64,000 nt of DNA, taken from positions 62,001 through 126,000 of the forward strand of contig JAUHZU010000007.1 of the NCBI GenBank assembly GCA_030425705.1. Reading direction: 5' to 3'. A model generated the notes under the pieces. It searched no databases and was not told where the DNA came from. It saw nothing but the letters and a program-made list of their open reading frames with translations. Of this stretch, positions 991 through 4,914 are shown piece by piece; positions within the stretch are counted from its first letter, which is position 1, and each line of letters begins with the position of its first letter. The stretch is from Phycisphaerae bacterium (lineage in GTDB: Bacteria > Planctomycetota > Phycisphaerae > Phycisphaerales > Phycisphaeraceae). A program made the position numbers and the translations under genes.

Positions 991-2706
991 ATGGCCTACA
1001 CCGTCCTAGCCCGACGCTACCGCAGCCAGTCCTTCGGCGACGTCGTCGGGCAGGGACCGATCGCCGACACCCTGCGGAACGCCATCCGCTCCGGCCGCGT
1101 CGCCCACGCGTACCTGTTTACCGGCACTCGCGGCGTGGGCAAGACGTCCATGGCCCGGCTGTTCGCCCGCGCACTCAACGCGCCCGACACCGTCCCCGAC
1201 GCCCCGAAGCCCGAAGACGACGACTACGCCTACCCCGAGGCGGATGTCCAGCAGCGTATGGCCGAGGCGATCATGCGCGGCGACGACCTGAACGTCATCG
1301 AGATCGACGGCGCGAGCCACCGCGGCATCGACGACGCGCGGGACATCATCGCGAAGGCCGGGCTCAGCCCGACCGACAACGCGCGCTACAAGGTTTACCT
1401 CATTGACGAGGTCCACATGCTCACGAAGGAGGCGTTCAACGCGCTCCTGAAGATCATGGAGGAGCCGCCGTCGCACGTGAAGTTCATCCTCGCGACGACC
1501 GAGCCGCACAAGATCCCCGCGACGATCCACTCGCGCTGCCAGCGGTTCGACTTCAAGAACATCCCGGCTGCGCAGATCAAGCAGCACCTCGCGGGGGTCT
1601 TGGCCGGCGAGTCGATCGAGGCCGACGACGAGGTGCTGTACCAGGTCGCGGTGCTGGGCAACGGCTCGATGCGCGACGCGCTCTCGCTGCTGGACCGGCT
1701 GACCGCGTCCGAGGTTCGGCCGCTGAGCGTCAAGCTGCTGGAGGACATGCTCGGTCTCCCGCCGCGCGAGCGGGTCGTGTCGCTGGTCGACGCGATGGCG
1801 GACGGCGATATCCCCAAGACGCTCGCCGAGATCGACGGGCTGCTCGCCTCGGGGATCGGCCAGGAGCAGGTCATCGATGTGCTGGTCGAACGCCTGCGGC
1901 AGCTCATGCTGATCGCGGCGTGCGGCGCGGACTCGGAACTGGTCGAGCTGTCGCCCGAGTCGCGGGCCCGCGCGGCGGAGCAGGCCAAGCGGTTTGATGC
2001 GCCGGGGCTGGTCCACATGATCGCGCTGTGTGACGGCCTGAGCCGGGCGGGCAAGAACGCCTCGAACCCGCGGGCGCTGTTGGACGCGGCGATGGTCCGG
2101 CTGGCCCTGGCCGAGAAGATGGCGGACGTGACAGCGTTGCTCGCCGGCGGCGGGGCGGTCGCGATCGACGAAAAAAAAAAGCTAGCGCCCGCTAGGTCCG
2201 ACCCGACACCCGCAGAGGCCGCACCCCAGCCCGGGGCGAGCACGGCCGCGCCGCCAATCACCGGAACGCCACAGCAGGGCACACCCGACGCGCCCCCCGA
2301 GGCGGTGATCGATATCAGCGACCCCCAGCAGGTCTGGCAGGCGCTGCACGACCGGCTGGGCAACGTCTCTTCGTTCGCCTGGGTGGACAAGGTCACCCTC
2401 GCTAAGCTTGATGCCGAGCAGGGCGTCTGCGTCCTCGAACCCCGCACCGGACAGCGCGATATCACGCGGTTCGCCGGCCAACGCCAACGCGAACGACTCG
2501 CGCTGGAACTCACCAAGCTGACTGCGAAGCGGTTCCGCGTCGAGCTCGCGCTCTCTCCACCACACCATCCCGCCCCGACCACCGAAGAGGCGGGCGGGAA
2601 CCGCGCCCAGGACCGCCAGAAGGCGCTCGGGCTGCCGCTCGTGCGCGATGTGCTGGACGTTTTCCCCGACGCCGTGCTGATCGATACCCGGCCCCGCAAG
2701 TCTTGA
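991..2706 (+). CDS. dnaX: DNA polymerase III subunits tau/gamma
   Basis: The protein (571 aa) is the clamp-loader ATPase of the replisome. Visible motifs are Walker A GTRGVGKT (45-52), Walker B VYLIDE (135-140), sensor-1 ATTEP (168-172) and the SRC motif with the arginine finger (181-183). Domain III follows to about residue 370, then a Pro/Ala-rich linker and a tau-type C-terminal domain (about 440-570). Two things are odd. The four zinc-binding cysteines that normally follow Walker A are gone: residues 64-99 hold an acidic, Cys-free stretch. And at codons 394-397 a run of ten A creates a slippage site that would yield a short gamma form. The SRP RNA lies upstream, and the AsmA-like gene and ebfC downstream, close to the usual dnaX-ebfC order. 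No Shine-Dalgarno is evident at the ATG. Confidence 0.96.
   Translation: MAYTVLARRYRSQSFGDVVGQGPIADTLRNAIRSGRVAHAYLFTGTRGVGKTSMARLFARALNAPDTVPDAPKPEDDDYAYPEADVQQRMAEAIMRGDDLNVIEIDGASHRGIDDARDIIAKAGLSPTDNARYKVYLIDEVHMLTKEAFNALLKIMEEPPSHVKFILATTEPHKIPATIHSRCQRFDFKNIPAAQIKQHLAGVLAGESIEADDEVLYQVAVLGNGSMRDALSLLDRLTASEVRPLSVKLLEDMLGLPPRERVVSLVDAMADGDIPKTLAEIDGLLASGIGQEQVIDVLVERLRQLMLIAACGADSELVELSPESRARAAEQAKRFDAPGLVHMIALCDGLSRAGKNASNPRALLDAAMVRLALAEKMADVTALLAGGGAVAIDEKKKLAPARSDPTPAEAAPQPGASTAAPPITGTPQQGTPDAPPEAVIDISDPQQVWQALHDRLGNVSSFAWVDKVTLAKLDAEQGVCVLEPRTGQRDITRFAGQRQRERLALELTKLTAKRFRVELALSPPHHPAPTTEEAGGNRAQDRQKALGLPLVRDVLDVFPDAVLIDTRPRKS
2171..2195 (+). promoter_or_regulatory. dnaX: programmed slippage/frameshift site in dnaX
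   Basis: Ten consecutive A (2171-2180) followed by G contain the heptamer A AAA AAG in the reading frame, the same one used by E. coli dnaX. Directly downstream is the palindrome CTAGCG CC CGCTAG (2182-2195). A -1 shift (or one extra A in the mRNA) reads Ala-Ser-Ala-Arg and stops at TAG 2193-2195. A +1 shift stops at TAG 2183-2185. Either route gives a protein of about 397-401 residues, the size and domain content expected of gamma. The palindrome starts immediately after the heptamer, closer than the usual spacing for ribosomal frameshifting. That and the run length favour transcriptional slippage as in Thermus dnaX; this last step is inference. Confidence 0.75.
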
Positions 2707-2739: not shown

Positions 2740-2745
2740 TATGAT
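2740..2745 (+). promoter_or_regulatory. -10 box, leaderless type
   Basis: TATGAT ends seven bases before the ATG at 2753, so transcription would begin at or beside the start codon. The ATG inside the box (2741) is therefore unlikely to be the start of the AsmA-like gene. Confidence 0.55.
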
Positions 2746-2752
2746 CACGCGT

Positions 2753-4498
2753 ATGCCAATCACAAAAAAACGGGTTTTGTCGGTCCTGATCGTGGTTGCC
2801 TTGTTGCTGCTGGGGCTGGGTGGCGCGGGGTACGCGATCCTCGGCGGGGCCGGTTCCTCCGCCCTCGAACAATACATCGGCGAGCAGGTCAAACGCACGG
2901 TCAATGGCTACCTGACGCCGGAACTCGCCTTTGAGGGCCTGGACTACCAGGCCCCGAAGACGGTCGTTCTGCAAGACGTCCGCCTGATCGCGCCAGACCC
3001 GGACAACCCCGGCACACGGATCGACATCTTCGAGGCCGAGTCGGTCCGCATCGAGCTCGGGGAGTTGCCGCGGCCCGGCAAGCCGATCGTCATCCAGTCG
3101 ATCACGCTGAACGCGCCGACCGCTCGGCTGATCCTCGCCGCCGACGGGAAAGCCATCGGCTACAGCGAACTGGTCCAGGCCGAAGCGGAGGGTGATGCGC
3201 CGCCTTTGAGCGAGGTCTTGCAGCTCCGCCTGATCGAGCTGCGTGACGCCGCGGTCGTGCTGGACACCCGCGAACCCGGGACGGAGCCGACGCAGATCGA
3301 CGACATCTCAACCGACCTGCACATCGATCCGACCGACGGCGGGCGGTACCACCTGGCGCTGGAGCTCGACCGTGTGCCGGTAATGACGGCCAGCGTCGAT
3401 GCGGTGCTGGATATCGATAACATGAAGCTGGATGTCGCGGCCACCGGGCTCGAGTTGGCGATCAGCCGGGGCAACGACCAGTACCTCCCGCAATCGCTCC
3501 AGTCGCTGATCAAGTCCTACGACCTCACCGGTGACCTGACGATCGTCGCCGCGGGTAGGGTCGACCTGAACACCTGGGAAGAATCCGTGCTGCAAGCCAC
3601 CGTCGGGCTCACCGGCGGCAACGCGGTGGTCGGCGACTACCGCATCCCGATCAGCCGGCTGCACGTCGAGGCGGCGACGGCCGACCGGATCGCGACCCTG
3701 CCGACGATCGAGATCGACGCCCTGGGCGGGACGATCCGCGGCGAGGCGGCGGCCCGGCTGGACCGCGGCATGCCGTTCACCACCACACTCTCAGGCACCG
3801 CCCTGGCGGTTGAGCAGACCCTCAAGCCCAAGGACGACGGCACGCCGCCGCGCTACGCCGGGCAGGCCGGGTTTGAGGTCACCGCCGGCGGGCTCGTGAG
3901 CGAGTTGACCACACAGCTCCGGGGTGAGGGCACACTGACGCTGCGGGAGGGCCGGGTCGCGCGGATCGCCGTGCTCTCGGACCTGATCGACTTCATGGAA
4001 TCCAGCGGCGACCTGCGTCGGCCCGACGGCACGGTGCCGATGGGCCGGGACAAGGCCGACGTCGCCTTCCGGCTCCGCGGCGACAAGGTGTATCTGAGCC
4101 AGGCGGAGATCGTGGGGAGCTGGTTCGCGGTCCGCGGGCGGGGCAATGTGTTCTTCGACCAGCGGCTGAATGTGCAGGTCAATGCCGGCCCGCTCGAGAA
4201 GCTTCAGGACGCGCTTGGCGCGGTCGGCGACGTTCTGGGCGCGGTGACGGACTCGATCATGGCCTACCGCGTGGGTGGAACGGTCGAGAAGCCGGGCATC
4301 AATGTCGTGCCCTTCGGCGGGCTGCGCAGTGCGCCGGGCGACGACGACGACGACCTGCCCCCGATCTCCTTGGATGCCCCCGCTAACCCTGCGGACGAAG
4401 TGCCGTCCAACGACACGCCGGCGGAAGACCCGGAAGAAGTCGAGGAGACCGCTCCTGGCCCGAACGACCCGGACTGGGAGCCGGCGTACGATAGCTAG
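2753..4498 (+). CDS. AsmA-like membrane-anchored protein
   Basis: This 581-residue protein has a short basic N-terminus, one hydrophobic segment (about 8-28) and a long, beta-rich periplasmic part. Its C-terminal third holds the run LRGEGTLTLREGRV, then FAVRGRGNVFFDQRLNVQV and a final IMAYRVGGTVEKPGI, which resembles the C-terminal region of AsmA/TamB-type proteins. These take part in outer-membrane lipid or protein traffic, but no specific role can be given here. A proline- and acid-rich tail (about 530-580) ends the protein. The start at 2753 is preferred over the in-frame ATG at 2741, because the latter falls inside the TATGAT box. It sits between dnaX and ebfC, on the same strand. Confidence 0.65.
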   Translation: MPITKKRVLSVLIVVALLLLGLGGAGYAILGGAGSSALEQYIGEQVKRTVNGYLTPELAFEGLDYQAPKTVVLQDVRLIAPDPDNPGTRIDIFEAESVRIELGELPRPGKPIVIQSITLNAPTARLILAADGKAIGYSELVQAEAEGDAPPLSEVLQLRLIELRDAAVVLDTREPGTEPTQIDDISTDLHIDPTDGGRYHLALELDRVPVMTASVDAVLDIDNMKLDVAATGLELAISRGNDQYLPQSLQSLIKSYDLTGDLTIVAAGRVDLNTWEESVLQATVGLTGGNAVVGDYRIPISRLHVEAATADRIATLPTIEIDALGGTIRGEAAARLDRGMPFTTTLSGTALAVEQTLKPKDDGTPPRYAGQAGFEVTAGGLVSELTTQLRGEGTLTLREGRVARIAVLSDLIDFMESSGDLRRPDGTVPMGRDKADVAFRLRGDKVYLSQAEIVGSWFAVRGRGNVFFDQRLNVQVNAGPLEKLQDALGAVGDVLGAVTDSIMAYRVGGTVEKPGINVVPFGGLRSAPGDDDDDLPPISLDAPANPADEVPSNDTPAEDPEEVEETAPGPNDPDWEPAYDS

Positions 4499-4563
4499 TC
4501 CCGATGAATGACAGCCCACTCACGCCCACGGATGGCGTACAGCATGTACGGAGACCTGTACGG

Positions 4564-4914
4564 ATGTTTGATCAACTCAAGAACCTGAAGGATCTGGCCG
4601 GGATGATGGGGAATCTCGGCGAGATGAAGCAGAAGCTCGAAGCGGCGCAGCAGGCGCTGGCGGAGAAGACCGCCGAGGGCGAGGCCGGTGCCGGCGCGGT
4701 GCGCGTCGTGATGAACGGCAAGTTCGAGGTGCAGTCGGTCACGATCGACCCGGCGATGGTCGGCGCGTTGGCCGGCGCGGGCACGGACGCCGACCGCGCG
4801 ATGGTGGAGGAGTTGCTGGCCGAGGGCTTCAACAGCGCCGCGGAGAAGGTGCAGGAACTGATGAAGGACTCGCTGGGTGATGTCGCCGGGGGGCTGAACC
4901 TGCCGGGCATGTGA
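4564..4914 (+). CDS. ebfC: YbaB/EbfC-family nucleoid-associated protein
   Basis: The 116-residue product matches the YbaB/EbfC family of small dimeric DNA-binding proteins. It starts MFDQLKNLKDLAGMMGNLGEM, followed by an alpha-helix of about 25 residues, the core AVRVVMNGKFEVQSVTIDP and a C-terminal helix. The family coats DNA and is very often encoded next to dnaX, as here. GGAG (4550-4553) stands ten bases before ATG 4564. The longer frame from 4504 would add 20 residues foreign to the family, so it is rejected. recR, which usually follows, is not in the window. Confidence 0.9.
   Translation: MFDQLKNLKDLAGMMGNLGEMKQKLEAAQQALAEKTAEGEAGAGAVRVVMNGKFEVQSVTIDPAMVGALAGAGTDADRAMVEELLAEGFNSAAEKVQELMKDSLGDVAGGLNLPGM

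Follow-up and report, generated by a model that had tools for sequence, protein, structure and literature searches.

The window, a stretch of 64,000 nucleotides from a Phycisphaerae bacterium, carries dnaX on the forward strand at positions 991 to 2706, as one uninterrupted reading frame for a full-length tau of 571 amino acids (61.6 kDa). The product matches the Pfam models DNA_pol3_delta2, DNAX_ATPase_lid, and DNA_pol3_gamma3 and scores 361 bits against the NCBIfam model dnaX_nterm (cutoff, 250). The ATPase part and domain III, common to tau and gamma, occupy residues 1 to 379 (positions 991 to 2127), with PF13177 at residues 22 to 191 and PF12169 at residues 250 to 379. The C-terminal tau domain, which gamma lacks, spans approximately residues 430 to 571 (positions 2278 to 2703). 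It matches PF12362 weakly at residues 495 to 565 (25.2; cutoff, 30.2), and relatives carry a homologous stretch in their −1 frame. On the 3′ side of dnaX (positions 2741 to 4914), a 585-amino-acid open reading frame (ORF) with an N-terminal hydrophobic segment is followed by a ybaB/ebfC gene.

The segment that joins domain III to the tau domain carries, in the sense strand, a putative slippage run of 10 A's (A10; positions 2171 to 2180), which the tau frame crosses as GAA AAA AAA AAG CTA. The run includes, in frame, the heptamer A_AAA_AAG (positions 2175 to 2181), identical to the frameshift heptamer of Escherichia coli dnaX. Both alternative frames close almost immediately. The +1 frame ends at a TAG 2 nt past the run (positions 2183 to 2185) that would serve mRNA lacking one A or carrying two extra, and the −1 frame (GCT AGC GCC CGC TAG) ends at a TAG 12 nt past the run (positions 2193 to 2195) that would serve mRNA one A longer or ribosomes shifted by −1. 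The initial annotation had noted the heptamer, had described the run and both stops at exactly these positions, and had called the run conspicuous in a GC-rich gene. In a pattern search, only three sites of at least nine A's were found in the 4.1-Mb genome; the dnaX run is the sole A10 and the only such run within a gene, the other two being A9 and apparently intergenic. By chance, A9 would be expected 0.01 times in the window. The protein sequence does not dictate the run, as the lysine codons of dnaX outside the cassette are AAG in 21 cases and AAA in none; AAGAAGAAG is a synonymous alternative to the native A10.

The cassette is strictly conserved among five species of the genus. The sequence GAAAAAAAAAAGCTA is identical at 15 of 15 bases in all five, amid flanks that are only 31 to 44% identical (ungapped) and thus near saturation. 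All five carry A10 in the same phase, so the check proposed in the initial annotation, whether close relatives have lost the run, revealed no loss. A +1 stop (TAG or TAA) follows straight after the run in every one of the five species, and the −1 stop lies 9 nt past the run in the other four, compared with 12 nt in the window gene, making the +1-frame stop the most strictly placed one within the genus. The run itself is conserved across the genus, the family, and much of the class.

The palindrome noted earlier directly behind the run does exist (CTAGCGCCCGCTAG; 14 bases; positions 2182 to 2195). It stems from two CTAG motifs that contain the stops, and the 5-bp hairpin that it would form immediately past the run is no more stable than shuffled sequences (z = −0.61 over 35 nt and +0.53 over 60 nt), on a score that is weak for single genes and reaches only −0.53 for the E. 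coli dnaX control. Neither palindrome nor hairpin is conserved among the other four genus members, although the stops are. We therefore rejected the palindrome as a stimulator and judge it incidental.

The wider comparison covered 214 distinct dnaX loci, almost all of them from the window's class, plus 40 from other classes of the phylum; many of the relatives are metagenome assemblies. Run length is bimodal, with A7 in 59 genes and A9 or A10 in 127 (32 and 95, respectively), and other lengths, including A8 and A11 or longer, are nearly absent. The phase of A7 is A_AAA_AAA in 59 of 59 genes, whereas A9 and A10 runs are found in each of the three phases, as a polymerase blind to frame would permit. 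Of the 98 class genes that have at least A9 and encode tau in frame 0, 90% have a stop within 30 nt in each of the two alternative frames, compared with 7.5% at control codons farther downstream in the same genes; in genes with a GC content of at least 0.62, the proportions are 91% and 1.8%. Ribosomal frameshifting by −1 never enters the third (+1) frame. Stops in both wrong frames are needed only under two-way slippage, and their presence thus favors slippage. A third-frame stop within 30 nt is found in 95% of genes with at least A9 and in 9% of A7 genes (P of about 10−23, uncorrected for relatedness, which inflates raw P values). In phylogenetically independent pairs, the link between mechanism and third-frame stop had a count of 5.3 for and 0 against (median P = 0.06). 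The cutoffs (30 nt and the run length classes) were picked after the data were seen, although the separation is wide.

The two length classes also differ in the elements known to stimulate ribosomal frameshifting. Behind A7 runs, downstream RNA structure is unusually strong (mean z score, −2.06), and a Shine-Dalgarno-like sequence of at least 4 nt lies upstream in 58% of the genes, with a mean duplex energy of −6.8 kcal/mol (−7.2 kcal/mol in the E. coli dnaX control). In genes with A9 or longer runs, such structure is missing (z = −0.24 and −0.09), and Shine-Dalgarno matches are infrequent (16% and 7%). For the window gene, the downstream z score is +0.48, and no upstream Shine-Dalgarno stimulator of the E. 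coli type was found, the longest AGGAGG match being 2 nt; these values, together with A10, place it in the slippage group. In some relatives, the A-run is replaced by G_GGA_AAA (L048, L050 to L052, L056, L095, L167, L168, and L183) or C_CCA_AAA (L074), both classical −1 frameshift heptamers, and the frame-0 stop usually comes one codon later in these genes. Judged by sequence features, the A7 genes look like cases of −1 ribosomal frameshifting and the A9-A10 genes like cases of transcriptional slippage, so that two mechanisms appear to be in use within the class.

We consider it highly probable that the A10 run of the window gene is a programmed slippage site of the Thermus type, yielding both tau and gamma. 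RNA polymerase would slip on the weak rA:dT hybrid and produce mRNAs with 9, 10, 11, 12, or more A's. Transcripts with 10 or 13 A's would encode full-length tau, while any other number would lead into a frame that closes within 12 nt and would give a gamma of 397 to 402 amino acids, which would retain the ATPase and clamp-loader part without the C-terminal tau domain. The predicted products are 61.6 kDa for A10, 43.2 kDa for A11, and 42.8 kDa for A9 (42.8 to 43.4 kDa across A8, A9, A11, A12, and A14 mRNAs), in agreement with the two DnaX forms of about 62 and 43 kDa anticipated in the initial annotation. Its preference for slippage over ribosomal frameshifting is likewise favored by the conserved run, the two-way stops, and stimulators that are present in A7 genes but absent from A9-A10 genes. 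Slippage in this organism, its efficiency, and the role of gamma are what we infer from these features.

Tau is not always the frame-0 product in relatives. We assigned the tau frame with a tau-domain hidden Markov model (HMM), as assignment by the longest ORF had wrongly put 12 A7 genes in the +1 frame. With the HMM, tau is in frame 0 in 8 A7 genes, in the −1 frame in 48, and in the +1 frame in none; for genes with at least A9, the corresponding numbers are 99, 25, and 3 (L011, L057, and L200), and the last three cannot be served by −1 frameshifting. Where tau is out of frame in the A9 or longer group, frame 0 closes just past the run. In the window's family, frame 0 encodes tau in 20 of the 41 sampled genes, as it does in the window gene, and gamma in 21, with at least nine changes between the two states. 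In about half of the family, gamma thus occupies frame 0 and the tau domain the −1 frame of genes that share the window's A10, and these species would depend on slippage for tau. Tau is expected to be required, as a replicase subunit; if so, slippage on this run in the 21 genes with tau out of frame must be substantial. Reinitiation at a second start was considered as a source of a separate tau domain in such reversed genes and is unlikely as a rule: only 2 of 28 reversed genes with at least A9 and 8 of 48 with A7 have an ATG no more than 40 nt from the frame-0 stop (9 of 28 and 20 of 48 when GTG and TTG are counted too).

A tree of 191 class genes implies at least 10 changes of mechanism, 7 of them on well-supported branches, and at least 24 changes of the standard product, 12 of them on such branches. 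It seems likely that the dnaX cassettes of the Phycisphaerae amount to a natural experiment on decoding routes that can replace one another: at a single site of one gene, slippage and −1 frameshifting have been interchanged at least 7 times, and the standard product has flipped at least 12 times. If true, this reading would imply nearly balanced slippage and selection for having both products, not for the route to them. With similar amounts of both products, an indel near the run may change little, and the roles of the frames could drift.

As in E. coli, gamma might instead derive mostly from −1 ribosomal frameshifting on A_AAA_AAG, the longer run being incidental. The heptamer is in frame, the −1 stop lies 12 nt past the run, a G-rich stretch upstream allows weak anti-Shine-Dalgarno pairing (−6.0 kcal/mol), and relatives with A7, G_GGA_AAA, or C_CCA_AAA evidently employ this route. 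A pattern search also found a single tRNA-Lys gene in the genome, with anticodon UUU as in E. coli; frameshifting could therefore contribute some of the gamma. Out-of-frame tau in genes with at least A9 is nearly always in the −1 frame (25 of 28), as −1 frameshifting and insertion-biased slippage would both predict. However, by the measures used here, neither the window gene nor the A9 or longer genes as a group show a Shine-Dalgarno match or a stable downstream structure, the strictest stop within the genus guards the +1 frame, which this mechanism does not use, and A9 and A10 runs are found in every phase, including members with tau in the +1 frame. We regard −1 frameshifting as unlikely to be the main source of gamma and possibly a minor addition to slippage.

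That no programmed event takes place at all seems very improbable. Under this explanation, the run is a chance lysine stretch in a single DnaX, or gamma arises by proteolysis, as cited for Caulobacter in PMC5009743, and seven class members without a cassette (identified below) do have one full-length frame. This explanation is difficult to reconcile with a run that is invariant amid saturated flanks, with the rarity of AAA codons, with two-way stops far above the level of control codons, and with relatives unable to make tau without recoding. Homopolymers are mutable and the identity of frame 0 often differs between species, as expected of a phase variation site where replication slippage toggles tau between cells; the run lengths might also be assembly errors. 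Random indels or errors would scatter the lengths, yet these are tightly A9 or A10 in 127 genes, with A8 and A11 or longer nearly absent, stops guard both frames, and all five genus members have A10 in one phase. We give phase variation or assembly error hardly any credence, even less than the lack of a programmed event, and retain programmed slippage as the preferred explanation.

The kind of mechanism proposed here is already known, from slippage in Thermus, frameshifting in E. coli, and the reversed genes of Antonov 2013. According to PMC1088944 and PMC5009743, slippage on A9 is established for Thermus thermophilus dnaX (Larsen 2000), as is frameshifting for E. coli dnaX. The Thermus gene, as described in these papers, resembles the window gene in a sense-strand A-run that lies past the shared part and ahead of the tau-specific end, in having tau in frame 0 and close stops in both other frames, and in slipped mRNAs that yield gamma (predicted for the window gene). 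It differs in its shorter run (A9 and not A10), its phylum, and its experimental demonstration, slippage in the window gene being a prediction from sequence; the window gene also belongs to a class that appears to use ribosomal frameshifting and reversed roles in dnaX. E. coli dnaX shares with the window gene the in-frame A_AAA_AAG, a close −1 stop, and the same two products (again predicted for the window), but the window gene is without a Shine-Dalgarno stimulator or a conserved hairpin, its run is longer, and its +1 frame is guarded. In Antonov 2013 (PMC3711429), frameshifting in E. coli constructs grows with run length (10% for A7, 40% for A9, and 63% for A11), and reversed two-ORF dnaX genes, nine of them with A10, are predicted, with slippage inferred for several. 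Those genes have the architecture of half of the window's family, and several also share A10, whereas tau is the frame-0 product of the window gene and both architectures alternate within its family. Planctomycetes are not named among the reversed genes in the main text of that paper. No report of such a cassette in this lineage was found in the literature searched, in keeping with the initial annotation, which had been aware of none. What would be new to specialists is the repeated swap of mechanism and roles inside one class.

The importance and purpose of gamma were long disputed in E. coli. A two-product outcome that is kept while mechanism and frame change would argue strongly for selection on both products. 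Sister species that share A10 with opposite frame roles provide ready test cases, as do the recent switches from slippage to frameshifting in L018 and L030.

Runs of A8 to A10 that are closely followed by a stop in one or both wrong frames are also present in dnaX from other classes of the phylum (L267, L271, L273, L275, L279, L283, L286, and L291), and the cassette may therefore predate the class. Eight class members (L144, L145, L209, L214, L216, L221, L232, and L244) have neither an A-run of at least A7 nor an evident slippery heptamer and seem to have lost the two-product cassette; except in L244, the gene is one full-length frame that encodes tau in frame 0. No full dnaX match was found in the family genomes G027 (listed as 95% complete), G035, G006, G032, G283, G284, and G290. 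One family member (G288) has an in-frame TAG at about codon 105 of dnaX (L072/L260), within the conserved ATPase region; this probably reflects an error in the assembly or a degenerate gene copy. Finally, the titles of five metagenome-assembled genome records (L093, L094, L097, L124, and L146), which name Singulisphaera, Leptolyngbya, Vicinamibacteraceae, and Cyanobacteria, clash with their Phycisphaerae-like dnaX genes, and these records are probably mislabeled.
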